Source of the DNA: Bryobacteraceae bacterium
GTDB taxonomy: Bacteria; Acidobacteriota; Terriglobia; Bryobacterales; Bryobacteraceae
NCBI GenBank assembly: GCA_019748195.1
Contig: JAIEPW010000069.1
Span: forward strand, 1 to 64,000
Length of the DNA stretch: 64,000 nucleotides
Direction: 5' to 3'
The notes below the pieces were generated by a model. It was not told the origin of the DNA. It did not search any database and saw only the letters and a program-made list of their open reading frames with translations. This document shows, in pieces, positions 38,258 through 46,538 of the stretch. The translations under genes and the position numbers were made by a program. Numbering within the stretch: position 1 is the stretch's first letter; each line of letters opens with the position of its first letter.

Positions 38258-39994
38258 ATGCGACGTACTCCGATTGTGCTCGCCTGCTCCGCGCTCGCCG
38301 CGCTGCTCGCCTTCCAGGGCGCCGCCCAGCGGGAGATTCGAAGAGGCCCGGTTTTCTCCATCACCCTCCCCGCCGGCAAGGCTTCGCAGCCGTTGGACGG
38401 CCGCCTCCTCCTTCTGCTGTCGACCGATCCGAAGGACGAGCCGCGGTTCCAGATCAGCGACGGGCCGAACACGCAGATCGTTTACGGAGTCGACGTAGAG
38501 GCTTGGAAGCCCGGCTCGGCCGTTCCGGTGGACGCCGCCGCGTTCGGCTATCCGGTGCGTTCGCTGGCGGATCTCAAGCCTGGCGAATACACCGTGCAAG
38601 CGCTTCTGGACAAGTACGAGACGTTCCGGCGTTCCGACGGGCACACGGTGAAGCTGCCCATGGATCGCGGGGAAGGGAGGCAGTGGAACCGTGCGCCGGG
38701 CAACCTGTATTCAAAACACACGAAACTCAGCGTCCAAGCCGACTCCCGGATCAGTCTCGTGCTCGATCAGGAAATCCCGCCCATTCCGGAACCGAAGGAC
38801 ACCAAGTACGTCAAGCACATCCGCATCCAGAGCGAACTGCTGACCAAGTTCTGGGGCCGCCCGATGTACCTGGGAGCGCACGTGCTGGTCCCCGAAGGAT
38901 TCGATTCGCACCCGGAAGCCCGTTACCCGCTGGTCGTGTTTCACGGGCATTTTCCGGCCGACTTCGGCGGGTTCCGGACGGAGCCTCCCGACCCCAACCT
39001 GAAGCCGGATTACAGCGAACGCTTCCAGCTCGCCGGCTACAACCGCATCCAGCAGCAGGAAGCCTACGACTTCTACAAAACCTGGACCGGACCCAACTTC
39101 CCGCGCATGCTGATCGTCGAAATCCAGCATGCAAACCCCTTCTACGACGATTCCTACGCGGTGAACTCGGCCAACCTGGGACCCTACGGCGACGCCATCA
39201 TGAAGGAGCTGATTCCGCACATCGAAAAGAAGTTCCGCGGAATCGGGCAGGGTTGGGCGAGGTTCACCTACGGAGGGTCCACGGGGGGATGGGAGGCGCT
39301 GGCCGTGCAGCTTCTCTATCCGGACGAGTTCAACGGGTGCTTCGCCGCCTGCCCGGATCCCATTGATTTCCGCGCCTACACCGTGGTGGATATCTACAAG
39401 GACAAGAACGCATATTTTCTGGACGGCGCGCATAAGCGAGTGCCGCGTCCCGGCAAGCGCGATTATCTGGGGCACGTGTCCGCCACCCTGCAGGACATGA
39501 ATTACTACGAGCTCGCGCTGGGGACGAAGTCGCGGTCGGGGCAGCAGTGGGACATCTGGGAAGCCGTGTATTCGCCGGTTGGGCCGGACGGCTATCCGAA
39601 ACGGATCTTCGATAAGCTCACCGGCGATATCGATCGCAAGGTAGCGGAGCACTGGCGCGAGAACTACGATCTGCGCCACATCGCGGAACGGGATTGGGCG
39701 AAACTCGGGCCCAAGGTCCGGGGCAAGATCCACATCTACTGCGGCGACATGGACAACTACTACCTGAACAACGCCGTGTACCTGATGGAGGACTTCCTGA
39801 AGAAGACCAAGAATCCGCCGGCGGATGCCGAGGTCGCCTACGGCGACCGCGCCGAGCATTGCTGGAACGGCGACCCCAAGCTGCCGAACGCGATCTCACG
39901 GCTGCGCTACAACACGATGTATGTGCCGCGAATCCTGAAGCGGATCGAGGCGTCGGCGCCGCCGGGCGCGGATCTGAAGAGCTGGCGCTACTGA
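38258..39994 (+). CDS. Secreted alpha/beta-hydrolase, putative esterase
   Basis: A 578-residue protein with a signal peptide (about residues 1-22). An N-terminal beta domain (about 25-170) precedes an alpha/beta-hydrolase of the esterase D type. The segment YPLVVFHGHFP is the oxyanion strand, the nucleophile elbow is YGGSTGGWEA (Ser near 341), and HCW near 535 gives the likely His. The acid residue is probably in GDMDNYY. Substrate is unknown. The C-terminus overlaps the convergent PIN toxin by 7 bp. Confidence 0.72.
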   Translation: MRRTPIVLACSALAALLAFQGAAQREIRRGPVFSITLPAGKASQPLDGRLLLLLSTDPKDEPRFQISDGPNTQIVYGVDVEAWKPGSAVPVDAAAFGYPVRSLADLKPGEYTVQALLDKYETFRRSDGHTVKLPMDRGEGRQWNRAPGNLYSKHTKLSVQADSRISLVLDQEIPPIPEPKDTKYVKHIRIQSELLTKFWGRPMYLGAHVLVPEGFDSHPEARYPLVVFHGHFPADFGGFRTEPPDPNLKPDYSERFQLAGYNRIQQQEAYDFYKTWTGPNFPRMLIVEIQHANPFYDDSYAVNSANLGPYGDAIMKELIPHIEKKFRGIGQGWARFTYGGSTGGWEALAVQLLYPDEFNGCFAACPDPIDFRAYTVVDIYKDKNAYFLDGAHKRVPRPGKRDYLGHVSATLQDMNYYELALGTKSRSGQQWDIWEAVYSPVGPDGYPKRIFDKLTGDIDRKVAEHWRENYDLRHIAERDWAKLGPKVRGKIHIYCGDMDNYYLNNAVYLMEDFLKKTKNPPADAEVAYGDRAEHCWNGDPKLPNAISRLRYNTMYVPRILKRIEASAPPGADLKSWRY

Positions 39995-40389
39995 ATCAGA
40001 ATCAGCTCGATTCCCGGTATGTTGCGGTACAGCCTGCGGTCACAGGTCAGCAGCCGGGCATCGACCGAAAAAGCGGTGGCGGCGATCAGCAGATCGTGCG
40101 CACCCGCGCCTTGTCCCCGCTGGTGGAGGTGCGCCCACAGGTTGGCGTGAACGCGGGCGGCGGCCAGATCGAAGGGCAGGGACGGGACGCGGTCCAGAAA
40201 ACCTTCCACGTGGAGCCGTCGCTTTTCGCGATACGGAGAGGTGGCTCGCGCCAGCCCGTGAAGCAGTTCGGACGCAGTGACCGCGCTGATCGCGACATCG
40301 TCGTCTCCGTGATCCGCCATCCAGGCCCCCAGGTCGAAGCGCCCGCGCTCGGCCGCGATCAGCACGCTGGTATCGAGCAGGATTCTCAC
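39988..40389 (-). CDS. vapC: PIN-domain toxin (VapC family)
   Basis: A 133-residue ribonuclease toxin. The acidic PIN site is intact: LLDTSVLIAAE (Asp6), AVTASELLHG (Glu near 42), and AHDLLIAATA with LTCDRRLY (two Asp near 98 and 116). It overlaps the antitoxin gene by 4 bp (ATGA), as expected of a coupled toxin-antitoxin pair. The RNA target cannot be read from sequence. Confidence 0.9.
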   Translation of the reverse strand: MRILLDTSVLIAAERGRFDLGAWMADHGDDDVAISAVTASELLHGLARATSPYREKRRLHVEGFLDRVPSLPFDLAAARVHANLWAHLHQRGQGAGAHDLLIAATAFSVDARLLTCDRRLYRNIPGIELILIQ

Positions 40390-40640
40390 CAGCGCGGGTC
40401 CGGAACCGAGGGCTGCGCCGCGCGGATTTCTTCCAGGTCCGCGGCGAATTCAGGGTCGGCCTTGGGCGCGCTCTTCAGGTAATCGAACAGCACCGAGCCT
40501 TTGACGAACCGCCGCTCCACGGGGCTCATGCGGCAGATGGGCTCGCCGTTGCGCTCGATCACGAACTCTTCACCCCGGTAGTGGACCCGGTTGAGCAGAT
40601 CCGAGAAATCCCGAGCTGCCTTGGTAGCAGTCGTTTTCAT
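40386..40640 (-). CDS. Type II antitoxin, Phd/YefM-like
   Basis: An 84-residue antitoxin with the Phd/YefM N-terminal DNA-binding fold (TATKAARDFSDLLNRV, GEEFVIERNGEPICRM). The charged C-terminal tail (about 50-84) would wrap the toxin. The start is the ATG at 40640, 6 bp after a strong -10 box. It is the first gene of the module. Confidence 0.88.
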   Translation of the reverse strand: MKTTATKAARDFSDLLNRVHYRGEEFVIERNGEPICRMSPVERRFVKGSVLFDYLKSAPKADPEFAADLEEIRAAQPSVPDPRW

Positions 40641-40646
40641 ACAATC

Positions 40647-40675
40647 ATATTATCTGATTATCTGACATCTGTCAA
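40647..40675 (-). promoter_or_regulatory. Strong promoter of the antitoxin-toxin operon, with operator-like repeats
   Basis: On the minus strand a perfect -35 TTGACA is 17 bp from TAATAT. Inside the spacer are an inverted repeat TGACA-GA-TGTCA and the tandem direct repeat TCAGATAA x2, likely autorepression sites. The -35 box overlaps the stop codon of the neighbouring amidohydrolase-like gene. Only 6 bp separate the -10 box from the ATG, so the leader is extremely short. Confidence 0.7.
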
Positions 40676-41928
40676 GGGCGCTGCCGGCTGTGGACCTCCA
40701 CTCCCCCCACGAACACCCGTTCCACCCAGCTCTTTACCGACAAGGGTGGGCCGTCCAGGACGATCACGTCCGCGTCCTTGCCGGTTTCCAGGCTCCCGAT
40801 GCGGTTGGCGACGCCCATGATCTCGGCGGGCGCAAGAGTCAGAAAGCGCAGCACATCCTCTTCACTTAAGCCGTAGCCGGCGGCTACGGCGGCATCGAGC
40901 AGCAGCCACTTGCTGGAGCCCGCCGGGGCCAATGAGCCAAAGCTGCGGGAGAAGGATGCGATGGCGATCTTAACCCCCGCGGCTTTCAGTTTCGCCGCGG
41001 AAGCCTCATCCACGGGCGGATAGTCGGCTTTATCGGGGATTTCCTCGTTGCTCACCCAGGGGTGCGAAACCTGTCCCAGCACGACAGGTACATTGCGCGA
41101 GGCGAGCAGAGATCGCAGTTCCCAAGCAGCCGCGCCGCCGTCGATGATCAGATCGAAGCCGAACTCCTGGGCAATGTTCAAGGCCGATCGGATGTCGGTA
41201 GCGCTGTTGGCCTGAACGCGTCCGGGAAGCTCCTTGCGCAGAAGGCGTCCCAGCGCCTCCATGCCGAGATCGCGTGGCGCGGTGGGATTGGCGGCGCGGT
41301 TGCGCTGGTATTCCTGGGCTTTGATGAGCATCTGCCGCAGCATGGCGGCCTGGGCCATGCGGGTGGCGGGATCGCGCTGGCGCTGGTTGGCGGCTTTCTT
41401 GGGCGGATCGCCCAGGGCGAGATCCATGGCGGCGGGCTCGCGAACGATCAGCGATTCCAGGTTCTCGCCGGCGGTCTTCACCACCGCGCCCTGGCCGCCG
41501 ATCACGGAGTTGTCCGCCGGTGCGATGTACATGGTGGTCACGCCGCCGGAGAGTGATTCCGTCAGGCGAATCGGCCCGTACTTGCCGGAGCCCATGGTTC
41601 CGAAGGGGTTGAAGGCTTCGATGGCGCGCAGTTCGGGTGTCAGGGAGTTGGACGGCTCATTCAGGTCGTTCGCCGCGAATCCGAGCGAGGTCATGGCGTC
41701 GACCAGGCCCGGCATCACGTACTTGCCGCGGCAATCGATCACCAGTGCGCCCGCGGGGACGGCCACCTGCGCGCCCACGGCGGCGATCTTGCCGTCGCGC
41801 AGAATCACGGTTCCGTTCGGGATGGCGGGTCCGCTGACGGGCAGCACGGTTCCGCCTTGCAGCGCCACGGGCCGGGTTTGCGCAAGGGCGGTGGCAGCCA
41901 GGAACCAGGTTGCGGAAAGCAGCTTCAT
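40672..41928 (-). CDS. Amidohydrolase-like protein lacking all recognisable metal ligands (pseudoenzyme)
   Basis: A 418-residue exported protein with a signal peptide (MKLLSATWFLAATALAQ). It has the composite amidohydrolase fold (beta-sandwich GTVLPVSGPAIPNGTVILRD, barrel, C-terminal GSLETGKDADVIVLDG). It aligns with its neighbour at 41925-43115, but the HxH is replaced (VDAMTSLG at 77-83), and the later His-bearing motifs have become VQANSATD, IIDGGAAAWE and IASFSRS. Activity as a metallohydrolase is not expected. The start ATG at 41928 overlaps the neighbour's stop by 4 bp; longer frames upstream lie inside that gene. Confidence 0.87.
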   Translation of the reverse strand: MKLLSATWFLAATALAQTRPVALQGGTVLPVSGPAIPNGTVILRDGKIAAVGAQVAVPAGALVIDCRGKYVMPGLVDAMTSLGFAANDLNEPSNSLTPELRAIEAFNPFGTMGSGKYGPIRLTESLSGGVTTMYIAPADNSVIGGQGAVVKTAGENLESLIVREPAAMDLALGDPPKKAANQRQRDPATRMAQAAMLRQMLIKAQEYQRNRAANPTAPRDLGMEALGRLLRKELPGRVQANSATDIRSALNIAQEFGFDLIIDGGAAAWELRSLLASRNVPVVLGQVSHPWVSNEEIPDKADYPPVDEASAAKLKAAGVKIAIASFSRSFGSLAPAGSSKWLLLDAAVAAGYGLSEEDVLRFLTLAPAEIMGVANRIGSLETGKDADVIVLDGPPLSVKSWVERVFVGGVEVHSRQRP

Positions 41929-43115
41929 TTCTTTTCCTCTTTCTGACGGTCGTAGAGCAGCACGCCATCGCCGAACACCATTTCCACGCGGGATCGCGGC
42001 TCGTACCAGGGCCCGTCGAAGAGCACCAGGTCGGCATCCTTGCCCGTTTCGATACTGCCGATGCGGTCGGCTACGCGGGCGATCTGCGCGGTATTGAGGG
42101 TTACCGCCTTCAGCGCTTCCGCTTCCGGCAGTCCGTAGCGCATGGCAATGGCGGCGCAGAGGCGCAGCCACTTCTGCTGCAGCACCGGCGCGTCGGTGTG
42201 CATCGCGATGCGCACGCCGGCTTTCCACAGGACCGTGGGGCCCTCCAGCACGTCCTCGCTGATGCCGATGCGCGGTCCCAGCGGCATCACCACCGCGTTC
42301 ACGCCCCGCTTGGCGATTTCCGGGGCCACCTTGTAGGCCTCGGTGGAGTGGTGCAGCGTCAGGTCAAAACCAAATTCGTCCTTCAGGCGCAGCAGCGTCA
42401 TGACGTCGGTTGCGGAGTGTACGTGGGCGCGCACCCTCTGCTTTCCGGCCAGCACCTCGGCCATGGCTTCATAGCCGAGGTCGCGGGCCGGCGGGTTGCC
42501 TTTCTTATCGCCTTCTTCCCACTTCTTCCAGGACGCCGTATATTCCTGGGTCTTGATCAGGTACTGGCGGAGGTTGGCGGCGACGCCCATCGCGGTGGCG
42601 GGATAGCGATCAGGGAATTTCGGTCCCATCGCGAACTTCATGCCGCCCCTTTCGGTGAGGATTCGCTTGGGCAGGTCGTCGCCGAAGGTCTTGATCACCA
42701 GCGCCTGGCCGCTGACGTTCTCGCCGCTGCCAGGTCCGGTGATCACGGTGGTGACGCCGCCGCGCATCGCCTCCTTCCATTGCTCATCGTTCAGGTCCAG
42801 CGCGTCCAGGATGCGGTGCTGCGGTCCGATGATCATCGGCCGGTCATTCAGGTCGGTCGCCTTGGCCCCGATATGGGAATGCTCGTCGATCATGCCCGGG
42901 GTGATGTGTTTGCCCTGGGCGTCGATGACGCGCGCGCCTTGCGGGATGGCGGCGCCGGCCCCCACGGCGGCGATCTTGCCGGCCCTGATGATGATGGTTG
43001 CGTTGGGGATCGGCGGACCGGCCGCGGTATGGACAGTGGCCCCGCGGATGGCTGTGGTTTCCTGCGCGCTGGCCCAGGCAGCCGCGGCCAGCAGGACGAC
43101 GATCGGAATTCGCAT
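41925..43115 (-). CDS. Secreted metal-dependent amidohydrolase
   Basis: A 396-residue exported hydrolase with a signal peptide (MRIPIVVLLAAAAWASAQ). Its metal ligands are present: IDEHSHIG (His79, His81), RAHVHSATD, LTLHHSTE and IAMHTDAP (the Asp after the last His). The sandwich domain and the C-terminal IGSIETGKDADLVLFDG segment are typical of imidazolonepropionase/dipeptidase-like members. It is translated first, followed through an ATGA overlap by the metal-less homologue. The substrate is unknown. Confidence 0.88.
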   Translation of the reverse strand: MRIPIVVLLAAAAWASAQETTAIRGATVHTAAGPPIPNATIIIRAGKIAAVGAGAAIPQGARVIDAQGKHITPGMIDEHSHIGAKATDLNDRPMIIGPQHRILDALDLNDEQWKEAMRGGVTTVITGPGSGENVSGQALVIKTFGDDLPKRILTERGGMKFAMGPKFPDRYPATAMGVAANLRQYLIKTQEYTASWKKWEEGDKKGNPPARDLGYEAMAEVLAGKQRVRAHVHSATDVMTLLRLKDEFGFDLTLHHSTEAYKVAPEIAKRGVNAVVMPLGPRIGISEDVLEGPTVLWKAGVRIAMHTDAPVLQQKWLRLCAAIAMRYGLPEAEALKAVTLNTAQIARVADRIGSIETGKDADLVLFDGPWYEPRSRVEMVFGDGVLLYDRQKEEKK

Positions 43116-43226: not shown

Positions 43227-43454
43227 ATGGGAAAGATGGTCCAGATCCGTAACATGCCCGAGCAAATGCATCGGACCTTGAAATCCAGAGCAGCCCTGGA
43301 AGGAATGTCGCTTTCCGCGTATCTCTTGCGAGAGATGGAGACTCTCGCGGAGAAACCCACGTGGGCCGAATTGGAAGAGCGTATGCGGAATCGCAAGCCG
43401 GCTCGCGTTCGCGAAACGAGCGCACAGGCGGTACGCGCTATTCGAGGACAATGA
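43227..43454 (+). CDS. Antitoxin, FitA-like ribbon-helix-helix protein
   Basis: A 75-residue antitoxin with the ribbon-helix-helix opening VQIRNMPEQMHRTLKSRAAL and MSLSAYLLREME. The C-terminal Arg/Glu-rich tail binds the toxin. The ATG at 43227 is only 1 bp from GGAGG, so the in-frame ATG at 43236 (MVQIRNMPEQ), at 10 bp spacing, may be the true start. The surrounding sequence is visibly more AT-rich than its neighbours, hinting at acquisition. Confidence 0.85.
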   Translation: MGKMVQIRNMPEQMHRTLKSRAALEGMSLSAYLLREMETLAEKPTWAELEERMRNRKPARVRETSAQAVRAIRGQ

Positions 43455-43840
43455 TCGTCATTGATGCGTCAGTGGTTGCCGAACTCCTGCTGCAGGGAGC
43501 CCAGGCCTCCAAGATCTGGGCGATGCTTACCGGGAGGCGAGGCGTCGTCGCGGCCCCCGCGATTCTCGACTTAGAAGTAGCGAGCGTCCTTCGGCGAAAG
43601 AGTTTCCGCAGCGAGATTACGGATGTGGAGGCTTCCGAAGCGCTCAAGTTCTATCAGCTTATGCGGATCGAGAAGTTCAGGACATCGGGTGTCCTAGATC
43701 GTGTTTGGGCTCTGCGATCCGATTTCACGCCTTACGACGCGTCCTACATTGCTCTAGCGGAACTGTTGGGCGCCACCTTCGTGACGCGCGATGAGGCACT
43801 GATATCCACGCTGCACAAGGCCCGGGTGGAACTGATCTGA
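43451..43840 (+). CDS. PIN-domain toxin (VapC/FitB type)
   Basis: A 129-residue PIN ribonuclease. Catalytic acids are in MIVIDASVVAELL (Asp5), AILDLEVASVL (Glu near 42), TPYDASYIALAE (Asp near 97) and VTRDEALI. The start is the ATG at 43451, which overlaps the antitoxin stop by 4 bp; the longer frame starting at 43361 lies inside the antitoxin gene. Sequence bias matches the antitoxin, unlike the rest of the window. Confidence 0.9.
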   Translation: MIVIDASVVAELLLQGAQASKIWAMLTGRRGVVAAPAILDLEVASVLRRKSFRSEITDVEASEALKFYQLMRIEKFRTSGVLDRVWALRSDFTPYDASYIALAELLGATFVTRDEALISTLHKARVELI

Positions 43841-43901: not shown

Positions 43902-46538
43902 ATGAATCCAATTCTAAAGTCAGTCGTATTTCTGGCGGTCGCCTGCGCCCCCTCGCTGGCGCAGCTTCCGCCCCTGCTGGACCGTGAGCTCTTTTTCGGG
44001 AACCCGGAATATGCGGGAGCCCAGATCTCGCCGGACGGGCAATACATCGCCTTCCTGAAGCCGCTCAACAACACCCGCAACATCTGGGTGAAGAAGACAG
44101 CGGAGCCGTTCTCCGCCGCCAAGCCGGTAACCAATGAAACCAAGCGGCCGATCCCGGCGTTCTTCTGGACCCGCGACGGCAAGAGCATCCTGTTCATCCG
44201 CGACAACGACGGCGACGAGAACTACAACGTCTGGTCGGCGGATCCCGCCGGGCAGAAGTCCGCGCGCAATCTCACCGATGCCAAGGGCGTCGTGGCATTC
44301 ATCTACGCCACCCCGAAGAACGACCCCAATACGGTCTACGTCGGCTTGAACGATCGCGACAAAGCCTGGCACGACCTATACAAGCTGAATCTGACCACCG
44401 GGGAGCGCACGTTGCTGCGCAAGAATACCGATCGCATCTCCGGCTGGTTCTTCGACAACCAGGGCGCGCTGCGCCTGGCGATTCGCTCGGCGGAGAACGG
44501 CGACAGCGAGATCCTGCGCGTCGATCCGGACAAGTTCGAGAAGGTGTATTCCTGCACGGTGCTCGAAACCTGCGTTCCCGTCCGCTTCCATAAGGACGGT
44601 AAGCGGGTCTACATGGCCTCGAACAAGGGCCAGGACCTGATGTCGCTGGTGTTGTTCGACCCGCAGTCGGCGAAGGTCGAGATGGTGGAAACCGATCCGC
44701 TGAACAAGGTCGACTTCGGCCAGGCGGTGTTCTCGGAAGTCACCGACGAACTTGCTGTCACCGCCTATGAGGACGAACGCCAGCGCCTGTACTGGAAAGA
44801 CAAGGGTTACGAAGCTGACTACAAATGGCTGAAATCCAAGCTGGGCGACAAGGAAATCAACATCGGCGCCCGTACCCGCGATGAGAACCTCTGGATCGTG
44901 ACCGCTCTCAGCGACACGGAGCCGGGCGAGACGTACCTGTTCGACCGCAAGAACAAGAAGCTGGAAATGCAGTACAAGATCCGCGAAAAACTGCCTCGCG
45001 AGCACCTGGCGAAGATGCAGCCGGTGAAGTACGAGTCCTCCGACGGGCTGGAGATTCCGGCATATCTGACGCTGCCCAAGGGAGTGGAGGCCAAGAATCT
45101 GCCGGTGATGATCGTGCCGCACGGCGGACCCTGGGCTCGCGATTCGTGGGGTTATAGCGGGTTCGCGCAGTTTCTGGCCAACCGCGGCTATGCCGTGCTG
45201 CAGCCGAACTTCCGCGCCTCCACCGGCTACGGCCGCAAGTTCCTGGATCGCGGGAATAAGCAGTGGGGCGACAAGATGCAGGACGACATCACCTGGGGCG
45301 TGAAATGGCTGGTGGCCAAGGGCATCGCCGATCCGAAGCGGGTGGGCATCATGGGCGGCAGCTACGGAGGCTACACCACGCTGGCGGGTGTGGCGTTCAC
45401 GCCGGACCTTTACCGGGCGGCGGTGGCGATTGTCGCGCCCTCCAACCTGATCACGCTGCTCGATTCCATCCCGCCCTACTGGGAAGCGGGTCGGTCGTTG
45501 TTTTACGAGCGCATGGGCGATCCCCGCACGCCGGAGGGGAAGGCGCAACTGATGCGCCAGTCGCCGTTGAACTCGGCCGCCAAGATCAAGACGCCGCTGA
45601 TGGTAGTGCAGGGCGCCAACGATCCGCGCGTGAACAAGGCGGAAAGCGACCAGATCGTGATCGCCCTGCGCGACCGGAAGTTTCCCGTGGAGTACATCGT
45701 GGCGCCGGATGAAGGACACGGCTTTCAGCGTCCGGTGAACAACATGGCGATGTTCTATGCGGCGGAGAACTTCCTGGCGAAGCATCTGGGAGGCAGGGCG
45801 CAGACGGATGCTCCCGCCGATGTTTCGGCGCGGCTGAAGGAAATCACCGTGGACCCGGCGGCCGTGAAGCTGGCGCCGAAGGTGGACGCCTCCGCCGTGC
45901 AGGCGCCGGTCCCCACGGGAACGCTGACGCCGGGCACCGCCAACTACGACGTGAAGATCGCGTTGGGCGCGCAGAACGTCGCGATGAGCGTCACCTCCAC
46001 GATCGCGCGGGAAAACGGAGACTGGGTGCTCACGGAAACCGCGAAGGGTCCCATGGGCGAGGCTTCGGACCGCATGGTCCTGGACGGCAAGACGCTGCAA
46101 CTAAAAAAGCGAACCGCCGGACAAGGCCCCATGTCCATTGACGTGGAACTGAAGGACAAAAAGGCGTCCGGCGTGATGAAAGCCGGAGGGCAGGACCGGC
46201 CCATGAACTTCGACCTGGGCGGCCCGGTGTTCGGCGACGGCGCCATGACCATGCAGTCCATCTCCGCGCTGCCGCTGGCCGAGGGCTACACGGTCACGCT
46301 GCGCGGCATCGACATGATGAAGCAGAAGCCTTCGCTGCTGACGCTCAAGGTGGCGGGCTCCGAGCAGGTCACGGTGCCGGCGGGGACCTTCGACGCTTAC
46401 AAAGTCGAGATCACTTCGGCGGAAGGCGGAGCCGACAAGACCACTCTATGGGTGGCCAAGACCCCGCGCAAGACGGTGAAGGCGGTCTCGGTGATGCCAC
46501 AGATGAACGGGGCGACGCTGACGGCGGAACTGAAGTAG
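43902..46538 (+). CDS. Secreted S9 prolyl-oligopeptidase-family peptidase with extra C-terminal domain
   Basis: An 878-residue exported peptidase with a signal peptide (MNPILKSVVFLAVACAPSLAQ). A beta-propeller (about 25-370) gates the catalytic alpha/beta-hydrolase domain (about 390-640). The Ser is in MGGSYGGYTTLAG (near 487), Asp in GANDPRVNKAE and His in PDEGHGF (near 605). Roughly 230 further residues (about 650-878) form a beta-rich DUF3108-like domain (MSVTSTIARENGDW, VPAGTFDAYKVEI) not usual for S9. It probably degrades short peptides in the periplasm. Confidence 0.9.
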   Translation: MNPILKSVVFLAVACAPSLAQLPPLLDRELFFGNPEYAGAQISPDGQYIAFLKPLNNTRNIWVKKTAEPFSAAKPVTNETKRPIPAFFWTRDGKSILFIRDNDGDENYNVWSADPAGQKSARNLTDAKGVVAFIYATPKNDPNTVYVGLNDRDKAWHDLYKLNLTTGERTLLRKNTDRISGWFFDNQGALRLAIRSAENGDSEILRVDPDKFEKVYSCTVLETCVPVRFHKDGKRVYMASNKGQDLMSLVLFDPQSAKVEMVETDPLNKVDFGQAVFSEVTDELAVTAYEDERQRLYWKDKGYEADYKWLKSKLGDKEINIGARTRDENLWIVTALSDTEPGETYLFDRKNKKLEMQYKIREKLPREHLAKMQPVKYESSDGLEIPAYLTLPKGVEAKNLPVMIVPHGGPWARDSWGYSGFAQFLANRGYAVLQPNFRASTGYGRKFLDRGNKQWGDKMQDDITWGVKWLVAKGIADPKRVGIMGGSYGGYTTLAGVAFTPDLYRAAVAIVAPSNLITLLDSIPPYWEAGRSLFYERMGDPRTPEGKAQLMRQSPLNSAAKIKTPLMVVQGANDPRVNKAESDQIVIALRDRKFPVEYIVAPDEGHGFQRPVNNMAMFYAAENFLAKHLGGRAQTDAPADVSARLKEITVDPAAVKLAPKVDASAVQAPVPTGTLTPGTANYDVKIALGAQNVAMSVTSTIARENGDWVLTETAKGPMGEASDRMVLDGKTLQLKKRTAGQGPMSIDVELKDKKASGVMKAGGQDRPMNFDLGGPVFGDGAMTMQSISALPLAEGYTVTLRGIDMMKQKPSLLTLKVAGSEQVTVPAGTFDAYKVEITSAEGGADKTTLWVAKTPRKTVKAVSVMPQMNGATLTAELK

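Follow-up and report, generated by a model that had tools for sequence, protein, structure and literature searches.

A putatively exported TM0814-like amidohydrolase and its ligand-less paralogue as candidate subunits of one enzyme, with paired relatives in many bacterial phyla

The metal ligands of the amidohydrolase superfamily follow a common pattern, with an HxH motif on strand β1, a lysine on β4, a histidine on each of β5 and β6, and an aspartate on β8. Dihydropyrimidinase-related proteins, or CRMPs, have the amidohydrolase fold and have lost metal ligands; they are eukaryotic, and are not known to have an active partner encoded alongside them. CRMPs appear among the weak PDB matches of the two bacterial proteins described here, for both of which the closest solved structure is PDB entry 3ooq, an amidohydrolase of Thermotoga maritima that we take to be the product of locus TM0814. 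This nearest solved relative has the HxH motif, the β4 lysine, the β5 and β6 histidines and the aspartate in its alignment and is thus ligand-bearing, unlike the second of our two proteins. No paper on TM0814 was found in open-licence PubMed Central.

Precedents for a dead subunit come from elsewhere. In Pseudomonas aeruginosa, pseudo-dihydroorotase (pDHO), an inactive dihydroorotase homologue, is required for the activity of aspartate transcarbamoylase (PMC7053772); its partner is thus a transcarbamoylase and not an active paralogue of pDHO. The closest working analogy, by analogy only, is offered by the M16B peptidases, which PMC12731061 describes as two-chain heterodimers with one metal motif (SPH2681/SPH2682, TTHA1264/TTHA1265 and AlbF/AlbE), as the homodimeric BHP and as the single-chain FusC/PqqL. 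The family described below likewise occurs alone, paired and fused, and likewise recurrently has adjacent genes of which one carries the metal motif and the other does not. M16B peptidases differ from it in their HxxEH motif and clam-shell architecture, and a Pfam search of our two proteins matched only PF01979 and PF07969, with no Peptidase M16 domain, so they are not M16B members. Searches of open-licence PubMed Central turned up no account of an amidohydrolase in which the active protein is joined by a dead paralogue of itself.

The window, the whole 64,000-nucleotide stretch of a Bryobacteraceae genome analysed here, carries such a pair on its minus strand. Gene A (41925–43115; 396 residues) encodes a TM0814-like amidohydrolase that is presumably exported and is the presumed catalytic subunit, and gene B (40672–41928; 418 residues) encodes a ligand-less paralogue, its presumed non-catalytic partner. 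The original prediction described both genes, their alignment along the full length and their coupling by an ATGA, and all of this is seen in the sequence: the two proteins are 39% identical over 418 alignment columns (E 7e-79), and the stop of A overlaps the start of B at 41925–41928. Its description of B is equally borne out. At the place of the HxH codons of A (H79-S80-H81, 42873–42881, minus strand), the β1 ligand motif whose two histidines are invariant in alignment A1, B has the MTS codons M79-T80-S81 (41686–41694, minus strand), so that H79 is replaced by M79 and H81 by S81, and the later His/Asp positions have also gone, with H231, H256 and D308 of A becoming Q239, G264 and F326. To these we add a sixth ligand, K160 of A (codon 42636–42638, minus strand), the invariant lysine of active members, common to 140 of 140 active copies and matched by D169 in B. 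K160 is probably the carboxylated bridging lysine of β4; in predicted structures the equivalent K145 of a natural fusion from another genome (L041) lies within strand 144–147, as would be expected of that lysine in binuclear members, and D169 of B within strand 168–171. A has the complete six-ligand pattern of a competent superfamily member and B does not, and both score above the Pfam gathering cut-offs for PF01979 and PF07969 (25 and 29.7 bits), A with 62.4 and 57.2 bits and B with 46.6 and 42 bits. Some residues of the active consensus are changed in A (E91 to D, N132 to E, N166 to K and K282 to R), which may reflect a different substrate. We think it likely that A and B together make up a single exported metallo-amidohydrolase, a heteromer of a catalytic A and a dead B.

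To either side of the pair lie toxin–antitoxin-like cassettes (39991–40640, minus strand; 43227–43837, plus strand), each with a PIN-domain protein (PF01850) and, just upstream of the PIN-domain gene, a small open reading frame that looks antitoxin-like from its sequence and not by a family match. The gene at 43902–46538 (plus strand) encodes a large protein that resembles S9 prolyl oligopeptidases and ends in a DUF3108 domain. Within the order such pairs are uncommon, a B copy at E 1e-62 or better being present in only one other of the 257 genomes searched (G602, another genus), and the window pair may therefore have arrived with mobile material. In a sample of the phylum, 146 of 396 genomes match B at E 1e-40 or better, matches that may be active or dead copies, and the window's own genome holds two further clusters of the family, one a pair and the other a triple. 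A scan of GTDB contigs for close relatives, with B alone, gave no match.

Both genes are present in G602, about 74–76% identical to A and B and joined by the same ATGA overlap (L169). The ligands of the A orthologue are intact, and the B orthologue has A, S, D, Q, G and F at the six ligand places. Nei–Gojobori dN/dS values against this pair are 0.179 for A (393 codons, dS 1.06) and 0.173 for B (415 codons, dS 1.24), ratios that are rough because dS is high. An AlphaFold2 model of B alone (pLDDT 87.1, pTM 0.88) has the barrel fold of solved amidohydrolases, superposing on 3ooq with a Z-score of 52.9 and an r.m.s.d. of 1.7 over 373 residues; its next matches, at Z-scores of about 25–27, are prolidases, an L-Lys/L-Arg carboxypeptidase and isoaspartyl dipeptidase. 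The proposal that B lost its ligands while keeping its fold accordingly stands, with the predicted fold intact and a dN/dS close to that of A. With catalytic residues gone and predicted fold and purifying selection retained, B has the features of a pseudoenzyme.

Relatives of the pair were surveyed in two sets. The near loci, retrieved through B or located in the window's own genome, are conditional for that reason; with the window's own locus (L011) excluded, they number 60, of which 58 have one active and one or two ligand-poor copies and two have a dead copy alone. Two of the 58, L054 and L058, have a truncated active copy, which was scored on the ligands present. The survey of named GTDB loci, made through an active-sequence profile, is the more telling because the near loci were found using B. 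Among the best 80 of its 449 confirmed matches, 32 loci have an active gene with one or more ligand-poor partners, 46 have an active gene alone, and L090 and L140 make up the remainder; phylum counts in this set lean to relatives of A, and the proportions are biased. Because four loci are identical in the two sets (L035/L096, L012/L112, L059/L129 and L037/L137), the sets are not additive.

Paired loci among the best 80 matches belong to Acidobacteriota, Planctomycetota, Gemmatimonadota, Verrucomicrobiota, Bacteroidota, Rhodothermota, Ignavibacteriota, Pseudomonadota, Armatimonadota and Krumholzibacteriota, six of these phyla being represented by a single locus, and two further paired loci have no assigned phylum. 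A survey across phyla, as the original prediction proposed, thus places a ligand-poor partner beside the active gene in at least ten phyla. That prediction also depended on relatives of the second gene having lost their ligands too, and here it fares well, with a ligand-poor copy in 58/58 near loci that have an active gene and in 32/34 multi-copy named loci. The two exceptions among the latter, again within the best 80 of 449 matches, are the archaeal L090, with a fragmentary second active-type copy, and L140 from WOR-3. In L140 two copies are intact and the remaining one lacks three of the six ligands; this is possibly an intermediate or a separate case.

The 46 lone active copies in the best 80 of 449 matches comprise 35 from Bacillota, six from archaea, two from Actinomycetota and one each from Lentisphaerota, Planctomycetota and an unassigned source; at the planctomycetotal locus (L141) the contig ends 93 bases past the match. 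These relatives indicate that the fold need not have a dead partner. In Bacillota the lone gene lies, at about eight or nine loci (L071, L076, L078, L083, L084, L091, L111 and L132), near genes that we call tsaE-, tsaD- and rimI-like from the appearance of their sequences. Dead copies can exist apart from an active gene as well: in wider stretches around the two near loci with a dead copy alone, L165 (4985–6325) and L166 (4082–6064), the flanks of at least 4 kb to each side contain no active homologue. The genomes of these two loci belong to the same family, and each has other tandem clusters of the protein family elsewhere. A three-part version, in the order dead, active, second dead, is seen at L010 (contig C152 of the window's own genome), L081, L117, L121, L127, L128, L136, L137 and L149. 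Its first two parts are fused in L117, L121, L128, L136 and L149, and each active enzyme has two different dead partners.

Ligand state divides the family sharply. Among 237 non-redundant copies, all six ligands are present in 135, none in 50, one in 42, two in seven and three in three, and no copy has four or five. The distribution was the same in form before copies at least 98% identical were removed (247 copies of at least 330 residues, including ten near-duplicates, the window pair among these), with six ligands in 140, none in 53, one in 44, two in seven, three in three and four or five in none. For the column analysis and the trees we used representatives, excluding copies at least 55% identical to one already retained; the dead row of L140 was excluded from the column analysis and from all trees but the first. 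Of 45 columns conserved in at least 90% of the 38 active representatives, those kept by at least half of the 42 ligand-poor representatives include none of the six ligand columns and 29 of the 39 others, mean retention being 11% for the former and 68% for the latter. Since the ligand columns are lost while most other conserved columns are kept, chance does not explain the ligand loss. Further columns strongly conserved in actives are also mostly lost in dead copies, among them those of the active-consensus residues N90, S130, A162, N166 and K282, window B retaining N90 and A162; these are probably second-shell or substrate positions.

Whether the dead copies arose once bears on the history of the window pair. 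In trees built without the ligand columns, dead and active copies are separated almost completely, with two changes of state when the dead row of L140 is left out and four when it is included. If the 42 dead rows are all given one origin, the p-AU is 0.888, or 0.362 under LG+F+G4 once the G602 rows are included; a clade of window A, window B and their G602 orthologues has a p-AU of 0.73, and of 0.511 under LG+F+G4, where the values of 0.362 and 0.511 come from shortened and quick tree searches. One dead clade and a clade of the window pair are both compatible with the data, and the trees do not decide between them. The window pair could thus be an independent duplication that lost its ligands separately from the main dead lineage, the architecture having evolved more than once. 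Among the 81 representatives no row is more identical to A than B is, or to B than A is (42%), in line with such a history, and their clade with the G602 orthologues is not rejected; neither is the single origin that would speak against it. We give this history serious weight, at somewhat short of an even chance; it is a matter of origin and not of mechanism.

The reading of A and B as subunits of one enzyme draws its support, indirectly, from natural fusions in both orders, a confident two-domain model and the co-divergence of the partners. Active and dead genes combined within a locus are on the same strand in 109 of 109 cases (six of them from L131 alone), the dead copy lying downstream of the active one in 93 and upstream of it in 16; in 16 of the 109 the two are fused in one open reading frame. 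Where a downstream partner is unfused, a median of 81 nt separates the stop of the active gene from the first strand on the barrel side of the dead protein (n = 79), roughly what a signal peptide would occupy. Natural fusions were seen at 24 loci, 14 in the order active–dead and 10 in the order dead–active; nine of the 24 were chosen for a long open frame, and three more chosen likewise proved to be non-fusions.

Pairing seems to go with export, as judged from hydrophobic N-termini in the clusters and none in the lone genes. A strongly hydrophobic N-terminus, defined by a 12-residue mean hydropathy of 2.0, is found in none of 45 lone actives; among the first domains of clusters it occurs in 64 of 84 that are active and in 73 of 96 that are dead, and the 20 active and 23 dead first domains that fall below the cut lie mostly between 1.5 and 2.0. 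None of 16 inner domains of fusions has a strongly hydrophobic lead. These N-termini suggest that A, B and the cluster members are exported.

A model of two joined domains was obtained for the 807-residue natural fusion at L041, from another genome of the phylum. The AlphaFold2 model has a mean pLDDT of 91.6 and a pTM of 0.91, the latter indicating a confident mutual placement of the two barrels, and both halves match amidohydrolases; the fusion is 36% identical to the window proteins, and the model is one of the fusion and not of A plus B. A mixed alignment was rejected for this model, as it aligned single dead proteins to the active half. In the alignment used, single dead proteins were left out, so that 15 fused rows are the basis for the dead half.

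The partners also diverge together. At 83 loci with exactly one active and one downstream dead copy, both over 330 residues (window pair included), active and dead distances correlate with r = 0.957, and at the 70 loci left after removal of those with actives at least 90% identical r = 0.947; in neither set did any of 1,000 permutations reach so high a value. The correlation is still 0.88 among 2610 locus pairs whose active divergence exceeds 0.4, and mean divergence is 0.585 for the dead copies against 0.544 for the active ones. A shared pathway without contact would also yield co-divergence and selection. This matters for the possibility that B works on its own as an exported binding protein, for substrate capture, sensing or as a chaperone, and is merely co-expressed with A without forming a stable complex. 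That B is conserved as strongly as A, and that L165 and L166 have dead copies with no adjacent active gene, would suit such a role; the fusions in both orders, the confident placement of the two domains in the fusion model and the tightness of the co-divergence argue against it, and on balance we judge it unlikely.

B might instead be an enzyme with another chemistry in the same pocket, metal-free or differently liganded. The barrel and many structural residues are retained, and window B and its G602 orthologue both have D and Q in two of the six positions where a ligand was lost, with an N at the H233 place. Across the 42 ligand-poor representatives, though, the only conserved replacement in a ligand column is a glycine at the H256 place (76%), and the only conserved polar residue that characterizes dead copies more than active ones is an arginine at the M117 place (85%), which also occurs in 11 of 38 actives and is a leucine in window B, so that we find a second chemistry decidedly improbable. 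That B is a decaying duplicate heading for loss, as the disappearance of all six ligands might suggest, is refuted by selection and by the breadth of the loss and hardly credible: a dN/dS of 0.173, the same as that of A, indicates that B is not decaying, its reading frame and predicted fold are intact, and the loss is common to 102 of 237 non-redundant copies, which come from many phyla.

We therefore return to the two-subunit enzyme. A would be its catalytic subunit, probably with a binuclear centre formed by the HxH motif, the β4 lysine, the two histidines and the aspartate, and B a pseudoenzyme subunit of the same barrel that has lost the metal centre and is presumably inactive. In the assembly B would take the place of a second A, and could stabilize A, shape or gate the entrance to its active site, or handle the substrate. 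The nearest folds invite the guess that this substrate is an exported peptide or amide; the neighbours of the surveyed loci gave no clue to it, and no telling neighbour common to the pairs was seen. The relative in Bacillota and archaea, which stands alone and has no export-like N-terminus, presumably assembles with itself, and in diderm bacteria the exported form would have turned into a heteromer that includes a dead subunit, the three-gene version having two of these.

More broadly, and tentatively, diderm bacteria may build their exported TM0814-like amidohydrolases as heteromers, in which a catalytic subunit is joined by one dead homologue or by two. On this view an ancient lineage of pseudoenzymes was acquired on leaving the cytosol, the window pair possibly having arisen a second time and independently, and the dead subunit completes or gates the active site of its partner; we put this generalization forward as possible, with more doubt than confidence. 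A catalytic subunit joined to a pseudoenzyme subunit is a known kind of arrangement, and it is the TM0814-like amidohydrolase family and its breadth that appear to be new. As B scores above the Pfam amidohydrolase cut-offs, annotation by family alone would count the dead copies as enzymes. Because the family shows lone, paired and triple forms and both orders of fusion, it lends itself to direct tests of how self-assembly may have given way to pairing with a dead partner.
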